From Acidobacteriaceae bacterium (GTDB lineage: Bacteria; Acidobacteriota; Terriglobia; Terriglobales; Acidobacteriaceae): a DNA stretch of 64,000 nt. Location of the stretch: assembly GCA_003134995.1 (NCBI GenBank), contig PLDC01000024.1:124001-188000 (forward strand), read 5' to 3'. Positions within the stretch are counted from its first letter, which is position 1; each line of letters begins with the position of its first letter. A model generated the notes under the pieces. The model was given only the letters and a program-made list of their open reading frames with translations. It was not told the DNA's origin and searched no databases. Both the position numbers and the translations under genes were made by a program. Below are positions 7,782 to 56,267 of this stretch, in pieces.

Positions 7782-7816
7782 GAACTGAGAACTGAGAACC
7801 GAGAACTGAGAACCGA
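7782..7816 (+). repeat. Heptamer array A: five GAAC(T/C)GA units before cheR
   Basis: Five consecutive 7-base units (gaactga, gaactga, gaaccga, gaactga, gaaccga) end two bases before the cheR ATG, occupying the position where a Shine-Dalgarno would be. The same word is used in the 14-unit array at 54613-54710. Confidence 0.9.
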
Positions 7817-15478: not shown

Positions 15479-16423
15479 CTACTTTTCCCGTACGTCGCCC
15501 ACGCCTACAATCTTCGCGGTCGCGCGAAACTTCTTGTAATCCCGATAGGTCTGCTCCACGTCCACATCGAAGTTCTTGATCAGGCCGATACGCACATCGA
15601 TCTTCGCCGTCAGGTGCAGCGGCAACCAGACTTCGTCGTTCACCCGCGTCTGTTCGAGCATGAAACGCGACCCTTTGTGGAAGCGCGCGAGAAACAATCC
15701 CCATGAAAAGTTGTCCAGGCATTCCACGTCCATCTTGGCCAGTTGCAGATCGTCCTTGTCGATCCAGACTCGGCCGCGAAACTTCGATAAAAACTTAGAC
15801 TCCTTCATGTGCGGCTCAAACCCCGGACGCGGCTCCCCGTCGATCACCCAGGCCTCGCGACCGCCTAAGGATTGCGTTCCCACCAGCGTGAAGTTGTAGG
15901 CGTCGGCTACGTCGCGCACGAATTTGCGATCCTGCTCTCGATCTTTTTCTTCTTTCTGCTCGCGCTTCCTGCGGGCATCCTCGGATTCATTCTTGCGTTT
16001 GTCGATGACCTTCTGGATCTTTTCTTCCTCTTTGGCCGCGTCCTTCTTGTCGAGAGCTTTGTCGTCTTTCTCGATCAGGCGCTGCACCTGTTCACCGTAA
16101 AGCTCCATCACATCGTAAGTCTTCACTTCGGTGGATTTCACCTGCCCAGTGCCATCGAGCTTGCGTTCTTCGTCGCGCTCAATGTAGGTATAGTCGCGCA
16201 CCCGCTTGCCGTTCTCGATATCTTTGTCGGCGACTACGCGAAGCAACTGCTGCATCTGCTGTTGCGAGAGCTTGCCGCTGGCATCGGGCTGCAAGTCGGG
16301 AGGGGAAGCGGTGCTCGGCGGCGAACCGGAGGCGGATCGATCCTGCTGGGCGAAAACCGGCGCTGCCAACAGAACGCCGACCATTAGGAGCAGAGCGAGA
16401 CCCAGCTTTCGCATGACAGACAT
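15479..16423 (-). CDS. Secreted LolA-like/outer-membrane protein, hypothetical
   Basis: About 314 residues with a signal peptide (MRKLGLALLLMVGVLLAAPVFAQ) and a Ser/Pro-rich linker. A long charged helix follows (about residues 110-190, KKDAAKEEEKIQKVIDKRKNE), probably a coiled coil. The C-terminal beta-rich part (EAWVIDGEPRPGF, GRVWIDKDDLQLAKMDVE, WLPLHLTAKIDVRIG) resembles outer-membrane lipoprotein-sorting folds. The function is unknown. I prefer ATG 16423 or 16414 over the longer ORF, whose N-terminus is encoded inside heptamer array C. Confidence 0.75.
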   Translation of the reverse strand: MSVMRKLGLALLLMVGVLLAAPVFAQQDRSASGSPPSTASPPDLQPDASGKLSQQQMQQLLRVVADKDIENGKRVRDYTYIERDEERKLDGTGQVKSTEVKTYDVMELYGEQVQRLIEKDDKALDKKDAAKEEEKIQKVIDKRKNESEDARRKREQKEEKDREQDRKFVRDVADAYNFTLVGTQSLGGREAWVIDGEPRPGFEPHMKESKFLSKFRGRVWIDKDDLQLAKMDVECLDNFSWGLFLARFHKGSRFMLEQTRVNDEVWLPLHLTAKIDVRIGLIKNFDVDVEQTYRDYKKFRATAKIVGVGDVREK

Positions 16424-16459
16424 TACGTTCTTAGAAGACGGGAAGTTCCCCCAGGATGC

Positions 16460-16494
16460 ACGACCAACGACCAACCACCAACGACTAACGACCG
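16460..16494. repeat. Heptamer array C: ACGACCA units spanning a stop codon
   Basis: Units acgacca, acgacca, accacca, acgacta and acgaccg fill the gap between two minus-strand genes. The TAG stop of the transglutaminase-like gene (16485-16487) lies inside the fourth unit, so the array forms the very end of the coding sequence. Confidence 0.88.
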
Positions 16495-17105
16495 TCCTTG
16501 TACGCTTTTCCCAGGCACTCCGCCTGAAACAGGCGCTCGTCCACGCGATGCAAGCTCTTTGCCACGGCTGGAGGGATCAGCGGGTAATGTTTAATCTCGA
16601 ACAGGTGATACACGATGAACCAGACGGGTTCTTCGGTGGTCATCCAATTCTGACTGTCGAAGCGTTTCAGATTGACGGGAACCGAGTAGCGCCGCAAGGT
16701 GCGCTCGCGGCGCAGATTGAAATAGCCGTTGAAATAAGTGATGGCCAGCTCGCGCAGCGTGCGATGGACGGGCTCGCGCCAGCGGCATCCGGTGTAGTTT
16801 GACTTGGCGACCGCGCCCCAGCATCCGTTCTCGCGAAAGACGGCAATCACATGATCGGTGTCGTGCTCGGCTTCGAAGTCGAGCAGCAGCGGAGGATATC
16901 CATTGGCGCGCAACGCCGCTGCCGCGAAAATTGCGCCTTCGAGGCAATGCGCCGTCTGCTCGGATAGCACGCGCCGCGGCGACCACGCTGTGTCTGCAAG
17001 ATGATAGGGGGCATCATCGAGAAACTTCTGAATGCCGTAAGGATCTTTCATGCTGCGCAACTTGCGCAGCTCTTTTCCTGTGAAACCTGCAAGCGGGTCC
17101 GTCAT
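16485..17105 (-). CDS. Transglutaminase-like hypothetical protein
   Basis: A 206-residue cytosolic protein. TAHCLEGAIFAAAALRANGYPPLLLDF followed by DTDHVIAVF is the core pattern of the transglutaminase/cysteine-protease fold, with Cys54 and His85 as likely catalytic residues. The third member is unclear. Such stand-alone small proteins are poorly characterised. The last codons (KDGR, stop) are encoded by heptamer array C. No operon partner with an obvious substrate is seen. Confidence 0.65.
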   Translation of the reverse strand: MTDPLAGFTGKELRKLRSMKDPYGIQKFLDDAPYHLADTAWSPRRVLSEQTAHCLEGAIFAAAALRANGYPPLLLDFEAEHDTDHVIAVFRENGCWGAVAKSNYTGCRWREPVHRTLRELAITYFNGYFNLRRERTLRRYSVPVNLKRFDSQNWMTTEEPVWFIVYHLFEIKHYPLIPPAVAKSLHRVDERLFQAECLGKAYKDGR

Positions 17106-17168
17106 TGACCGATGAGTTTACATGAGAGCCGCTGGCATGCGAAACACGCAGGCCCGCGCGCACTTGGG

Positions 17169-17295
17169 GGTCTTAGGTCTCAGGTCTTAGGTGTTAGGAA
17201 GACCCGACCCCTGACCCCTGACCCCTGACCCCTGACCCCTGACCCCTGACCCCTATGCCCTAACACCTGAGACCTAAGACCTAAGACCTAAGACC
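17169..17295. repeat. Heptamer array D: inverted arms around seven GACCCCT units
   Basis: The left arm (17169-17196) has four GGTCTTA-type units. The centre (17206-17254) has seven perfect GACCCCT units. The right arm (17261-17295) has five TAAGACC-type units, the reverse complement of the left arm. The arms could fold into a stem of about 28 bp. The right arm includes the last four codons and the stop of the phosphatase gene (stop at 17281-17283). Confidence 0.95.
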
Positions 17296-17988
17296 CGGAC
17301 TGAAAACTTCCGCCAGTTCGTAAGGCGTGTCCACCAGCACATCCGGCGGATTCTCCTTGAGCGTGTGTGGCGCAAAACCGTAGTTCACGCCCACGGTCCA
17401 TAATCCGGCGTTCTGTCCAGTTTCAACGTCCGTGTGCGAGTCGCCGACGATCACCGCTTCCTCTGGCCGCACACCGCTTTCTTCGAGCAGCTTGCGCGCG
17501 CCCTCGGGATCAGGCTTCTTGGTCGCAAAACTATTGCCACCGTAGATTTGAGTAAAGAACGGACCTAATCCCAACGCTTCGACGATGGCACGCGACGGGG
17601 CCACCGGCTTATTCGAGAGTACAGCCAGCCTGCGCGGAACTCCGTTGCTCGCATTTTGAACGGCAGCAAGCGCTTCGTTTACGCCCGCGTAAACCGTAGT
17701 GTGATCGAGTTTGTGTTCGCGATAATAAGACAGAAAAAACTGCAGGCCCTGGCGCACGATGGCTTCGTCAACCGCTTCGCCGCCGAGCGCCCGCTGAATC
17801 AGGATCGGAGCGCCATCCCCCACATAGCTGGCAATGACGTCATCGGGCAACTCGGGACGTCCAATGTGGCGCAGCGCGGCATTCACCGAATGCACCAAGT
17901 CGAGGCGCGAATCAATCAGCGTGCCATCAAGATCGAAGATCACCAGCTTAATTGAGTTCGGGTCGAAGGCGCGCCGGGTCTGAATCAT
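17281..17988 (-). CDS. gph: HAD-family hydrolase, phosphoglycolate phosphatase-like
   Basis: About 235 residues. HAD motif I is IFDLDGTLIDSRLDLVHS (nucleophile Asp in DLDGT), motif II is LAVLSNKPV, and motifs III/IV are KKPDPEGARKLLEESG and VIVGDSHTDVETGQNAG. The cap domain and overall length fit phosphoglycolate phosphatase, which removes 2-phosphoglycolate arising from DNA repair or oxygenation. I chose the ATG at 17988 (MIQTRRAF); the longer frame adds 32 Arg/Leu-rich residues of doubtful value. The C-terminal SPGLRS and the stop are encoded by heptamer array D. Confidence 0.85.
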   Translation of the reverse strand: MIQTRRAFDPNSIKLVIFDLDGTLIDSRLDLVHSVNAALRHIGRPELPDDVIASYVGDGAPILIQRALGGEAVDEAIVRQGLQFFLSYYREHKLDHTTVYAGVNEALAAVQNASNGVPRRLAVLSNKPVAPSRAIVEALGLGPFFTQIYGGNSFATKKPDPEGARKLLEESGVRPEEAVIVGDSHTDVETGQNAGLWTVGVNYGFAPHTLKENPPDVLVDTPYELAEVFSPGLRS

Positions 17989-18163
17989 GGGTTCGTTTAA
18001 GAATAAACGATCGCGGCGCACACAGACTGGCCGTAAAATCCCCCCGCGCAAGAACTTGCATGTTTTCCAAAGCTTAAATCCCATTTACAATGCAACTTGC
18101 GCTGTCGCGCTGGCACCACATTTATAGGACGCATAATTCATAAGGCATTCCTCAGGAAACCGG

Positions 18164-20395: not shown

Positions 20396-20399
20396 AAAT

Positions 20400-20441
20400 C
20401 AGCGGACAGTGGTCGGTGATCAGTGGCCAGTGTTCAGTGAA
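20400..20441. repeat. Heptamer array E: six CAGTGGT-type units
   Basis: Units cagcgga, cagtggt, cggtgat, cagtggc, cagtgtt and cagtgaa begin five bases after the E1 stop codon. The same word family is used in array F after htrA. Confidence 0.88.
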
Positions 20442-28039: not shown

Positions 28040-28128
28040 TAGTGGTCAGTGATTAGTGGTCAGTGGTCAGTGAATGCGGCAGAATCATGTGAAGGGTTTT
28101 GCTTGCCGCTGATTTCTGGCCACTGATC
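28040..28128. repeat. Heptamer array F: TAGTGGT/CAGTGGT units with an inverted partner
   Basis: The left array (28040-28074) has units tagtggt, cagtgat, tagtggt, cagtggt and cagtgaa, starting five bases after the htrA stop. The right array (28108-28128, gctgatt, tctggcc, actgatc) reads as the reverse complement of the same word family, so the gap can fold back on itself. Confidence 0.85.
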
Positions 28129-47620: not shown

Positions 47621-47820
47621 CGGGCTTCGGGCTTCGGCTTTCGGGCTTCAAGCGACCCGCGCCAAGCAAGACGCGTGACCTTCGTGTCGGAGAAGCGGTC
47701 CGCGCCTACGACTGCCGGATTACAATGTATCTAACTTCCTAAGGGGATAAAAACGGCTGGGGTCCAACGAGCGAAGGCGCAGCAGCAGCGCCGAAGCCCG
47801 GAGCCCGAAGCCCGAAGCTC
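47621..47820. repeat. Heptamer array H: inverted CGGGCTT / GAAGCCC arms flanking the mreD-mrdA gap
   Basis: The left arm 47621-47648 (cgggctt, cgggctt, cggcttt, cgggctt) starts four bases after the mreD stop. The right arm 47793-47820 (gaagccc, ggagccc, gaagccc, gaagctc) ends one base before the mrdA ATG. The arms are reverse complements and bracket the 144-base centre of the gap, which shows no other feature. Confidence 0.92.
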
Positions 47821-47821
47821 G

Positions 47822-49807
47822 ATGTTCGGACGCGACGACAAAGTTTCGGCAATCCGCCTGACGGCGGCGCAGTACATGATCCTGGCCATCTTTCTTGTGC
47901 TGGCTTATGGACTGTGGCGGCTGCAAGTGATGCAGAGCGGCTATTACGCCTCCGCGGCCCAGAAAAACGAAATTCGCAATGTGCCCATCCTCGCGCCTCG
48001 GGGCAAAATTCTCGATCGCGAAGGCCGCATCATCGTCGATAACTACCCATCATTCTCTGCGCTGCTCCTGCGTGATTCTTCCCGTGACCTGAATGCCGAT
48101 GCGGATTTGATTGCCCAAGGCCTGCACCTCGACGCAACCGAAGTGCGTACGAGAATCCGGCATTTCGCCTCCATGCCGCAATACCAGCCGATCTTTCTGA
48201 AAGAAGACATCACTCCGGACGAGCTGGCGTTTATCGACGCGCATCGCAACGAACTGCCGGAGTTGGACACGATCGTCGCCCATCGCAGGTTGTATCCGCG
48301 CAACGGATTCATGGCCCACCTGATCGGCTATGTCGGCGAAGTCACGGAAGACATGCTCAACCAGCCGCAGTTCGAACTCTACAACCCCGGCGATGTCGTG
48401 GGAGTCTCGGGCGTCGAGCGGCAATACAACAACGCATTGATGGGAAAAAACGGGGCGCGGCGCGCCCTCGTAAACAGCCACGGTCGCGAAATCGGGTTGC
48501 TCGGCGAGACCGAGGCAGTCCCCGGAAAACAATTGAAGCTGACCGTGGATATTGATTTGCAAATTGCTGCCGAGGAAGCGCTTGAAGGGAAGAACGGCGC
48601 CGTTGTCGCAATGGATCCGCGTACCGGCGAAATCCTCGCTATGGTGAGCCGGCCGACCTTCGATCCCCAAAGTTTTTCGGTGCGGGTGTCACGCGATCAA
48701 TGGAGCAAGCTGGTCAATGATGAAGACCATCCGCTCATGAACAAGGCGATTCAAGCGCAACTCGCGCCGGGGTCGACGTTCAAAATCATTATGGCGACTG
48801 CCGGCCTGCAGGAAGGCATCGCGCAGGACCTGCATGTGAACTGCACCGGCGGGGGAATTTTCTACGGACGTTATTTCAAATGCTGGATCTCAGCGCGGCA
48901 TCAATCGCACGGCGCCGTCGACATTGTGAAGGGAATTTACCAATCCTGCGATGTGTTCTTTTACACGCTCGGAGAAAAGCTTGGCATTGACCGCATCGCC
49001 AGGTACGCAACGGCGCTGGGCATGGGGCAGAAAACGGGAATCGATCTGCCGCAGGAAGTGAGCGGGGTGATGCCGTCCGAACAGTGGAAGATCCGGAACT
49101 TCAAGCAGAAATGGTTTGCCGGGGAGACGATCTCGGTGAGCATCGGGCAAGGCGCAGTGGCGGCAACGCCCATCCAGATGGCGCGCGCCTTCGGCGCGAT
49201 CGCCAGCGGAGGCCGCATGGTTCGGCCGCATGTGACCAATCCCACAGATTTGCCGCCGGGCATAATTCCAGCGCAGAACCTTCAGGATGAAGTGACGATT
49301 CCGATCGACCCGAAAAATTGGGAGATCATTACCGACGCTATGGCGCAGGTCGTCAGCCCAGTGGGCACCGCAGGCGCGTCGGCGATCAAAGGCGTAGACA
49401 TGGCCGGCAAGACCGGCAGCGCCCAGACTGTCAGCAACGCGCTGAAGGCCAAGATGAGCGCCAGCGACAAGGCCAAGCACAAAGACAATGGCTGGTTCGT
49501 CGGAGTCGAGCCGCGGCGCAATCCGGAAATTGTCGTGTGCGCCCTGTTCGAAGAAGGCGAGCACGGCTCCTTGGCCGCCCACGTAGTTTCGAAAGTGATC
49601 GAAGCCTACGTAGAGAAGCAACGCCGTCAACCGGCGAAGATGGCATCGGCGAAGGCCGCAGCCAACGCGGAAATCGGCGCAGTATGGACCGAGCCGGACG
49701 AAGATGGCGGCGAGCAGAAGCTGCAAGGCGGCCACTTTTTTCTGGACACAGCAAAACGCCCGCTAGCGGTCATGACGGCCGCGCCGGGAATGGCGCAGAC
49801 GCATTGA
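47822..49807 (+). CDS. mrdA: Penicillin-binding protein 2 (elongasome transpeptidase)
   Basis: A 661-residue class B PBP that crosslinks peptidoglycan during elongation. Membrane helix about 17-35, then the dimerisation domain starting ILAPRGKILDREGRIIVDN. The transpeptidase domain has the active-site Ser in APGSTFKI (about 318), YQSCDVFF (about 372-379, the SxN-equivalent motif) and KTGSAQ (about 530). The C-terminal tail of about 50 residues is acidic and non-conserved. There is no ribosome site: heptamer array H ends one base before the ATG. Confidence 0.95.
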   Translation: MFGRDDKVSAIRLTAAQYMILAIFLVLAYGLWRLQVMQSGYYASAAQKNEIRNVPILAPRGKILDREGRIIVDNYPSFSALLLRDSSRDLNADADLIAQGLHLDATEVRTRIRHFASMPQYQPIFLKEDITPDELAFIDAHRNELPELDTIVAHRRLYPRNGFMAHLIGYVGEVTEDMLNQPQFELYNPGDVVGVSGVERQYNNALMGKNGARRALVNSHGREIGLLGETEAVPGKQLKLTVDIDLQIAAEEALEGKNGAVVAMDPRTGEILAMVSRPTFDPQSFSVRVSRDQWSKLVNDEDHPLMNKAIQAQLAPGSTFKIIMATAGLQEGIAQDLHVNCTGGGIFYGRYFKCWISARHQSHGAVDIVKGIYQSCDVFFYTLGEKLGIDRIARYATALGMGQKTGIDLPQEVSGVMPSEQWKIRNFKQKWFAGETISVSIGQGAVAATPIQMARAFGAIASGGRMVRPHVTNPTDLPPGIIPAQNLQDEVTIPIDPKNWEIITDAMAQVVSPVGTAGASAIKGVDMAGKTGSAQTVSNALKAKMSASDKAKHKDNGWFVGVEPRRNPEIVVCALFEEGEHGSLAAHVVSKVIEAYVEKQRRQPAKMASAKAAANAEIGAVWTEPDEDGGEQKLQGGHFFLDTAKRPLAVMTAAPGMAQTH

Positions 49808-49852: not shown

Positions 49853-49880
49853 AGCTAGGAGCTAGAAGCTAGAAGCTGCC
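49853..49880. repeat. Heptamer array I: AGCTAGA units before rodA
   Basis: Units agctagg, agctaga, agctaga and agctgcc end three bases before the rodA ATG. Read in reverse they match the AGCTTCT/AGCTCCT words of array B before uvrB. Confidence 0.88.
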
Positions 49881-54612: not shown

Positions 54613-54710
54613 GAACTGAGAGCTGAGAACCGGGAACTGAGAGCTGAGAACCGAGAACCGAGAACTGAGAATTGAGAACTGAGAACTGAGAACTGAGAAC
54701 TGAGAACTGA
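54613..54710. repeat. Heptamer array K: fourteen GAACTGA-type units
   Basis: Fourteen consecutive units in strict 7-base phase, eight of them exactly gaactga, the rest gagctga, gaaccga, gaaccgg or gaattga. The exact copies cluster at the right end, as expected if new units are added there. The array stops three bases before the stop codon of the minus-strand gene at 54714. It is the longest array in the window and uses the same word as array A at cheR. Confidence 0.96.
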
Positions 54711-54713
54711 AAA

Positions 54714-56267
54714 CTAGCTTCCCGGATGAGCCAGAGCCTTTACGGCGAGATCAGATCGAACGCGTAGTTTGTGCACCGTTTCATGAATCGCGACGGCAGA
54801 TGCATTGCTATCTGCGCCCTTGGCGACGGCGACAGCCTCTTCCGTCGTGGTGCTGGCGATTTCGAGCAGGGCTACGAGCGCGTCGGCATGCAACTTCCAC
54901 AGCGACGACATGCTATGGCTGCGCTTGAGTTCCTCGAGTTCGGTGTTCACGCGAGCCACGCAGGAAACCATGCGGATTAGCGTGCGCGCAACATCGGCGC
55001 GAAGGCTTTTCTCCTCGAGGAAGCTTGCATTGTAGGCTTCGGCTTCGGCCGTAGTTAGTGTCAGATTGAAAAAGCGCATCGGGACAATCTGCCGATACTT
55101 GGGATCAGCAACGCGCACAAAGACTCGGATCGATTCTTCAACGCGGCGCAGTTTGCCTTCTTCGGCAGAGATTTGCTGGGCCGTGATTGCCGGCGCCTGA
55201 AAGGCCTGCGCTGGAACGGGCTCTTTTGCGGCCGCAACTCGCGCAGCCTTGGCAGCAGCAGCCGCGCCCGAAGATTTCGTTGTGCCTCCGCCCGAAGGCG
55301 CAAGCAACGACTTGCGAATCGGTGGACGCCGGTCGAGTTCTTTTTTCAAGCGCGAGACACGGCGAAATTTTTCCAGAGCGCTGCCGTAGTCGGCTTGCAG
55401 CATTTCTTTCTGTTCGATCGCGGCTACGTGGTCGACCGTGACTTCTACGCCGTCGACGGTGCTGAGAATGCTGCCTCCCATCTCATCGAGAGCCTGGGCG
55501 AATTGCTTGATTTCTCCCAGAGCCTTTTCGAAGAGCTGGTCAAAGCGCGCGCCGAACGCCGCGTTGTGGGCGGCGACCGTCGCCAGCACGCCGGGATGAT
55601 AAAACGAAGCGTCCAGCCAGCGCTTCAGTTCGCGCACTCGCGAGATGATGCCGGAATCGATAAGCGAATTGAAATCGCGGTAACGGGCGATCTCCTCGCG
55701 CAAGGGATCGAAGTTGCGCAACAGTTGCACGTGTTCTTCCGGAAGCGAAGGCACATCGGTGTCGGCAAGAATTTCGATCAGGGCAATTTCAAATGGAGAG
55801 AGCGGCAAAGATCCGTCGAGTCCGTAACCGTGCTGCTGCCATTGCCCGTGGACTCGGGGATGACGATAAAGGAAAGTAGAAATCAGATCGGTCTTGTCGC
55901 GGTTGACTTCGCTGGGCTCGCGGCGGCGCACGAAGTAACGAAGCAGGGCCTCGGCAACTTCGGAATCTGTTTCGGGAGTCAGCGCGTGGCGCAGCATCGC
56001 GGGCGTGATAGCCATATCGAGCAGGTGCAGCCAGCGATACATCCGCGAAAGAGTTTCGGGAAGGTCGGATTCAGAATGGCGAAGCGAGACTTCGTCGAGC
56101 CCGCTCGGAATGGGCACATCGCCGCCGAGCGAATCGCGCATCAGCTTCTGATAAAAACCCTGGACAGTCGCCAGGATTGCTAACTCAAATTTAAGATCCT
56201 CGGCCAAGAAACGCTCCCGCGAGCGGGAATTTCCCCCTCGGTTAAAGGATTCTTTACTGCTGTTCAA
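54714..56267 (-). CDS. Hypothetical helical protein, 517 residues
   Basis: I do not recognise the family. The protein is soluble and mostly helical. A flexible Ala/Gly/Pro/Ser linker around residues 325-360 (SGGGTTKSSGAAAAAK) divides it into an N-terminal part with Leu-rich helices (LSRMYRWLHLLDMAITPAMLRHAL) and a C-terminal part (SMSSLWKLHADALVALLEIASTTTEEAVAVAK). There is no signal peptide and no catalytic motif. It stands alone between heptamer array K and purU. Codon use looks native. Confidence 0.75.
   Translation of the reverse strand: MNSSKESFNRGGNSRSRERFLAEDLKFELAILATVQGFYQKLMRDSLGGDVPIPSGLDEVSLRHSESDLPETLSRMYRWLHLLDMAITPAMLRHALTPETDSEVAEALLRYFVRRREPSEVNRDKTDLISTFLYRHPRVHGQWQQHGYGLDGSLPLSPFEIALIEILADTDVPSLPEEHVQLLRNFDPLREEIARYRDFNSLIDSGIISRVRELKRWLDASFYHPGVLATVAAHNAAFGARFDQLFEKALGEIKQFAQALDEMGGSILSTVDGVEVTVDHVAAIEQKEMLQADYGSALEKFRRVSRLKKELDRRPPIRKSLLAPSGGGTTKSSGAAAAAKAARVAAAKEPVPAQAFQAPAITAQQISAEEGKLRRVEESIRVFVRVADPKYRQIVPMRFFNLTLTTAEAEAYNASFLEEKSLRADVARTLIRMVSCVARVNTELEELKRSHSMSSLWKLHADALVALLEIASTTTEEAVAVAKGADSNASAVAIHETVHKLRVRSDLAVKALAHPGS

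Follow-up and report, generated by a model that had tools for sequence, protein, structure and literature searches.

Array D, a heptamer fold-back at a stop codon, and a class of intergenic fold-backs in a genus of Acidobacteriota

Between two genes of a soil bacterium of the Acidobacteriaceae lies a short series of heptamer repeats whose two ends are complementary to each other. This locus, here called array D, is located in the window, i.e. the whole stretch of 64,000 nucleotides that was analysed. It raises the question of how such a structure is made and how its arms are kept matched: by copying of DNA, by selection for an RNA hairpin, by the spread of a mobile element, or by plain slippage. 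The best explanation is that array D belongs to a numerous class of intergenic fold-backs, made up of words of 7 or 8 nt, in this genus of Acidobacteriota. We assign a probability of about one half to the reading that the fold-backs of this class are both made and kept matched by copying of one arm from the other at the DNA level, with slippage changing the number of units.

Sequence and predicted fold of array D

Array D covers positions 17169 to 17295 and contains four, seven and five heptamer units in series; a recount confirmed these coordinates and unit numbers, as given in the preliminary description. On the plus strand, positions 17169 to 17198 hold four GGTCTTA-type units (GGTCTTA, GGTCTCA, GGTCTTA and GGTGTTA, ending at 17196) followed by GG. 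This part is the 3' arm of the coding strand and lies beside the downstream gene. The orientation of the units flips at the junction AAGACCC (17199 to 17205). The core (17206 to 17254) consists of seven exact copies of GACCCCT, read as AGGGGTC on the coding minus strand. A linker unit (GGGCAT on the coding strand) and the coding-strand 5' arm, also on the minus strand, occupy 17255 to 17295 in the register of the core, and the plus strand from the end of the core to 17295 reads CTAACACC, TGAGACC and three times TAAGACC.

Read from 17295 downward, the minus strand gives GGTCTTA three times, GGTCTCA, GGTGTTA, GGGCATA, GGGGTCA repeatedly, GGGGTCG and GGTCTTC, all in a single 7-nt register, and past the flip CTAACAC, CTAAGAC, CTGAGAC and CTAAGAC. 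What had been described as two different heptamer words, one nested in the other, are divergent units of a single array that switches strand at one end; two independent arrays could be rejected because the units share one register.

The stem formed by the arms is 27 nt long, close to the approximately 28 bases proposed earlier, and comprises 25 Watson-Crick pairs, one G-U and one A-C; the GACCCCT core lies inside its loop of 60 nt. The arms were shown to be inverted copies of each other, variant units included: the rarer units GGTGTTA and GGTCTCA are present in both. RNA folding, suggested before as a check, predicted a fold for array D that none of 200 shuffled sequences equalled (z -5.24), and the same was predicted for folding as DNA (z -5.36; 0 of 200). 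The core on the coding strand, (GGGGTCA)n, is a G-quadruplex motif situated in the hairpin loop, with at least four G tracts as predicted by pattern search and quadruplex-aware folding. When quadruplexes were allowed, the predicted RNA energy went from -66.8 to -97.2 kcal/mol, with two putative quadruplexes within the loop. A known RNA family was rejected for array D, since the Rfam covariance models gave no match over the array at an E-value of 1; two weak matches elsewhere in 16400-18100 were both under their gathering scores.

Ordinary slippage accounts well for the seven exact copies of the core, which look recent: at this junction the related loci L097 and L111 show, by eye, no more than one or two GGGTCA-like units (in L111, two units resembling GGGGTCA).

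Flanking genes and transcription signals

Both genes flanking array D are encoded on the minus strand. The upstream gene (17281 to 17988) encodes a HAD-like phosphatase; its start was taken from a home-made gene call, and the longest open reading frame starts at 18084. Its stop codon falls inside array D, and the last four codons (GLRS) together with the TAG stop, at 17281 to 17295, are spelled in array units. The co-directional downstream gene (16485 to 17105), described earlier as transglutaminase-like, had no Pfam match at an E-value of 0.001. A second heptamer array, at 16460 to 16493 on the minus strand (ACGACCA on the plus strand), covers the stop codon of this gene.

No promoter-like site was found by sequence scan in 16900-17600. 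The sole terminator-like site in this region, detected by a scan that accepts loops of 3-8 only, is located at 17052-17070, outside array D, and shuffled sequences gave 0.7 such sites on average. The G+C-rich stem and T run of an intrinsic terminator were not found at array D, nor was a terminator-like tail after the array. Bidirectional termination, which had been put forward for this intergenic region, is unsupported, as the flanking genes are co-directional and array D has no terminator-like site.

Related arrays in the same genome

In 842,983 bases of the same genome, 83 arrays with a lag of 7 exceeded the threshold and 80 of them lie outside predicted genes, the gene calls in these counts coming from the home-made caller. 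The numbers for lags of 5, 6, 8, 9, 10 and 11 in this sample were 1, 6, 16, 5, 1 and 0, respectively. In 400 kb from C23, 45 lag-7 arrays were counted, and a first-order Markov simulation of 400 kb produced no lag-7 run at a threshold that gives 11 in the real 400 kb. Further 7-nt arrays in the window are located at 7782-7816, 20398-20440, 28041-28072, 47791-47822, 49853-49877 and 54613-54715; the array at 49853-49877 lies 6 nt upstream of a predicted start codon and is present with identical sequence at two more genome loci.

For 45 of 60 array clusters the distance to a stop codon is at most 10 nt, whereas 2000 random placements gave 16.5 such clusters on average and 27 at most. Co-directional spacers contain 60 arrays in 75.8 kb, convergent spacers 14 in 21.0 kb and divergent spacers 4 in 33.8 kb. 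Counted by spacers of at least 40 nt, an array is borne by 48 of 362 co-directional, 12 of 80 convergent and 4 of 98 divergent ones. In 24 of the 26 co-directional fold-backs of this genome, the first base of the 5' arm falls within the interval from -5 to +10 nt relative to the stop codon. Both the poverty of divergent spacers and this arm position speak for an alternative in which RNA hairpins within one transcript are selected, either coupling translation of both genes or shielding the upstream mRNA. The geometry suits coupling, with a 5' arm that begins at the stop codon and a 3' arm that often lies just before the next start. We consider selection for RNA hairpins possible, if rather unlikely, and return to it below.

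Inverted matches between the two halves of a spacer (at least 12) were found in 25 of 58 array-bearing spacers (those of at most 450 nt among 64), compared with 22 of 461 swapped pairs (4.8%), which corresponds to an about ninefold excess. Hairpins scoring at least 12 anywhere in the spacer occurred in 30 of the 58 spacers with arrays versus 38 of 250 array-free spacers. These figures bear on the proposal that the arrays are products of plain slippage in tolerated spacers, their inverted arms having arisen by chance. The seven exact core units do resemble recent slippage, and PMC4692102 describes an excess of heptamer repeats across many bacterial genomes. However, neither the ninefold excess of inverted arms nor the two variant units that the arms of array D have in common would be expected from it, and as an explanation of the whole structure plain slippage is improbable. 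The arm matching within genomes of the genus, described below, disfavours it as well.

A dispersed mobile element, REP- or MITE-like, would have copied whole fold-backs from place to place. In agreement with this, a DNA search with array D returned 26 matches in the own genome (G000) and some in 8 of 20 relatives, the same variant order is found at separate loci (AGCTAGGAGCTAGAAGCTAGAAGCT in 3 of 9 pattern matches, CAGTGGTCAGTGATCAGTGGTCAGTGGTCAG in 2 of 2), and G000 has 8 matches to Y1 transposases. The 3 of 9 for AGCTAGGAGCTAGAAGCTAGAAGCT may nevertheless be due to chance, as other orders were also found. Moreover, each genome contains many unrelated words, loops and flanks differ among the inspected copies, and G008 (86% complete) has fold-backs without a Y1 match. 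Y1 transposases as the cause showed no clear link, and a mobile element appears quite unlikely.

The same junction in related genomes

The junction of the phosphatase and its downstream gene was analysed by script in 47 of 80 loci and in G000 (48 sequences), and the downstream gene was located within about 1.2 kb in 37 of them. Six of these 37 spacers contain a periodic run: G000, L097 (GGTCTTA), L103 (AGTACCN), L107 (GGTCTTG), L120 (CGACYAA, in a spacer of 561 nt) and L134 (AGCTACC type). The remaining 31 are without one, which counts against selected RNA hairpins. A fold-back was also predicted at the junction in L097, L103 and L107. That array D was produced by faulty assembly is extremely improbable, because these other records fold back at the same junction, and the class was found in each of the 12 same-genus genomes compared.

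In the phosphatase tree, G000 belongs to a four-row group (84/92) together with L094 and L105, which have no array, and L103, which has another word. L097, L107 and L111 are placed outside this group, and good support is limited to 5 of 25 inner branches. The idea that array D was gained once was rejected, since the tree, with few supported branches, mixes arrays, absence of an array and another word. Arrays of this kind appear to be gained, lost or exchanged at this site.

Fold-backs in ribosomal protein operons

Spacers of 29 neighbouring gene pairs in ribosomal protein operons were compared among 12 genomes of the same genus, the own genome included, and 8 genomes of the sister family, with some pairs missing in some genomes. 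Overlapping genes were counted as spacers of length 0, and the rplE-rpsH and infA-rpsM spacers seem to contain a small ribosomal protein gene missed by the gene caller. The median spacer measures 91 nt in the genus (n = 292) versus 20 nt in the sister family (n = 222). Of the 292 same-genus spacers, 104 contained a stem scoring at least 10 and 100 were periodic (7 or 8); of the 222 sister-family spacers, whose shorter length offers less room for stems, the numbers were 5 and 1, respectively.

Hairpins of 7- or 8-nt words recur at the same sites across the 12 same-genus genomes, with differing words. Between rpsH and rplF, the stem score is at least 10 in 10 of 12 genomes and the spacer is periodic in 11 of 12 (G008 has neither), and the words vary by genome (CAGCTNT, GCTCTTG, CTTCTGG, GAGCAAT, AGCTTCT and others). 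That several of the 12 species have fold-backs at the same sites, with preserved pairing and different words, counts in favour of selected RNA hairpins, as does the rpsH-rplF spacer itself. On the other hand, individual sites may be without the hairpin: it is missing from rpmD-rplO in G003, G007 and G011, where the spacer is 10-13 nt, and from rplR-rpsE in G005, where it is 2 nt.

Matching of the arms was compared within and between genomes at 22 sites, using spacers of 45-230 nt and sites with at least 5 genomes. The two halves matched (at least 12) in 62 of 197 cases when both came from the same genome, and in 110 of 1650 when they came from different genomes. The observed sum of 1841 was not reached in any of 1000 permutations (maximum 1432). 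The same-genome mean was higher at 17 of the 22 sites, the exceptions being rplV-rpsC, rplP-rpmC, rpsQ-rplN, adk-map and rpsK-rpsD. Fold-backs close behind stop codons were shown for the own genome, as were, for the relatives, words that differ at many sites where the arms still match.

Outside the genus, similar fold-backs were seen by eye between rpsH and rplF in the same-family genera g8, g11 and g16 and none in g10 (28 loci). In other families of the class, 19 of 20 loci were readable, and their rpsH-rplF spacers of 6-94 nt contained no periodic run of at least 9. In the sister genera g8, g10 and g12-g14 (L229-L250), conserved GGCTGCAGTGGAAC...GACTCGCAAGCC flanks a variable stretch between rpsH and rplF, as judged by eye. 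For three g10 loci this block had no Rfam match at an E-value of 0.5, and it may be an undescribed ribosomal protein leader.

Within G000, L036 (3364-3440) and other S10-spc spacers also hold heptamer or octamer fold-backs between ribosomal protein genes, and other species have other words. The 8-nt word GTTTCAAG is found in three fold-backs each in G002 and G004 (S10-spc spacers), and at rplN-rplX in G001, G002 and G004, a distribution resembling that of words which spread inside a genome and are retained from one species to another.

Comparison with known repeats

Array D is a true fold-back. Its kind is known from the STRR hairpins and the convergent heptamers of Xanthomonas, and this variant is new. 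No report of such repeats in Acidobacteria or Sulfotelmatobacter was found in the openly licensed literature.

The cited descriptions of the STRR sequences of filamentous cyanobacteria concern 7-bp repeat hairpins between hupS and hupL, for which a function in transcript stability or translation coupling was proposed (PMC2670836, PMC2408588). The proposal in PMC2670836 is the same as the one for selected RNA hairpins considered here and lends support to it. As far as those descriptions go, the class of array D shares with STRR the tandem 7-bp units, the intergenic position at many dispersed places of the genome and the predicted hairpin between neighbouring, co-directional genes. The likeness is one of form, the words being too short to show descent. 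Unlike the cyanobacterial repeats, the class in Acidobacteriota has several words per genome, 8-nt words as well, and a position close behind stop codons; its words are replaced across species with the arms staying matched, it has fold-backs in ribosomal protein operons, and the loop of array D carries a quadruplex motif.

The heptamers GGGAATC and GGGGA(C/T)T of Xanthomonas and Nostoc are, in the sections of PMC4692102 that deal with them, mostly intergenic and near the end of the upstream gene, and 70 and 75 convergent inverted heptamer pairs are given there for two Xanthomonas genomes. Array D resembles them in its heptamers, its convergent inverted arrays and its predicted G-quadruplex motif. 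Its words, GGGGTCA in the core and GGTCTTA in the arm, are different ones. The theme of that account is one G-rich word with quadruplex potential, whereas here matched arms of many words are found and the motif is present in 9 of the 83 arrays.

The TAACTGA repeats of Beggiatoaceae, as presented in PMC4679880, are likewise heptamer arrays beside genes, often before start codons; unlike the class of array D, they comprise 169 sets of direct repeats with one indirect repeat reported. REP elements are intergenic palindromes in many copies too, in the description of PMC3733652. They are characterised by a GTAG/CGTC tag and an associated RAYT transposase; the class of array D differs from them in its periodic arms and many words.

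Origin and maintenance of the matched arms

Selected RNA structures are usually recognised by changes that match on the two sides of a stem, and in stems kept for an RNA fold, G-U on the sense strand is expected to exceed A-C. In 96 stems, 1929 positions were Watson-Crick, 64 were G-U, 64 were A-C and 119 were other. The RNA controls gave G-U to A-C ratios of 5:0 (12 tRNA acceptor stems) and 13:4 (41 U-tailed hairpins), in total 18:4. Comparison of 64:64 with 18:4 yielded a Fisher p of 0.006, with controls that are small and positions within one stem that are non-independent. Because G-U and A-C mismatches are equal in number, the evidence on balance favours arm matching kept at the DNA level over RNA selection. 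Selection on RNA stems as the keeper of the pairing is unsupported by this wobble test and was retained as a rival.

Repair genes were compared as well. Among 13 genomes of the genus, G003 alone had an SbcD match over the family cut-off; the 8 sister-family genomes had none, and 8 of the 14 controls had one. Weak matches of 20-25 bits were present in 6 other genomes including G000. Loss of SbcCD as sole cause was rejected, the sister family being likewise without SbcD over the cut-off and having short spacers. The lack of SbcD over the cut-off in 12 of the 13 genomes, which would fit arm copying, is at most permissive, because the sister family and 6 of 14 controls miss the cut-off too. Loss of mismatch repair was also rejected, as MutS was matched in 21 of 21 genomes (19 over the cut-off).

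According to the arm-copying explanation, a replicating strand would fold on itself and one arm would be copied off the other by template switching, so that both the origin of the arms and their continued match would lie at the DNA level. Slippage would alter the number of units, with the exact seven-copy core as a recent case, and arrays would pile up behind stop codons since an insert is least harmful there. On the mRNA, the stable hairpin and its possible G-quadruplex loop would stand between two co-directional genes, and any influence they have there would be a by-product or put to use secondarily. Template switching in inverted repeats is described in PMC8794818 and PMC8604942 as a maker and repairer of hairpin stems, and copying of arm from arm is common to both situations. 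The events dealt with in those accounts are single mutations, whereas here the process would act on repeat words at many genome sites.

Copying with strand switching, the mechanism suggested in the preliminary description, fits the data best and is indirectly supported by the shared rarer units, the arm match within genomes and the lack of a wobble signature. We infer both mechanism and function, no copying event having been seen. Other points against arm copying are the 5 of 22 sites at which the same-genome mean was not higher, the hairpins in 38 of 250 array-free spacers, the own-genome mismatch counts (G-U 23 vs A-C 16, from a smaller and earlier set) and the variation of words in one column, treated below. 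The scarcity of arrays in divergent spacers, and the fact that several species have fold-backs at the same sites, might alternatively reflect a function in the transcript.

As stems match across species and their mismatches are without an RNA signature, the genus could be used to test whether hairpins are kept by DNA copying instead of selection. If this is true, searches for RNAs in genomes of this kind can be led astray by arm covariation taken alone. The ribosomal protein spacers are concrete sites for deciding between DNA copying and selection.

A more far-reaching version of arm copying is put forward tentatively and is unlikely in its full form. An active process would keep writing fold-backs of 7- or 8-nt words behind stop codons, including those of ribosomal protein operons, by hairpin-templated copying, in which each round would leave six (or seven) bases faithful and one position free. 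Words would spread, drift and be replaced with the arms staying matched, and array D would be a site with a freshly slipped, quadruplex-capable core. The variation among units was analysed by word column in 88 of 147 lag-7 and 26 of 41 lag-8 arrays (26 of 83 in an earlier own-genome version). A pile-up of substitutions in one column is predicted by neither slippage nor arm copying. For 7-nt words, 54 same-column substitutions were observed versus 31.3 (sd 4.4) expected, and for 8-nt words 13 versus 5.0, values reached by none of 1000 random sets in either case; each word looks as though one position were free and the other six (or seven) fixed.
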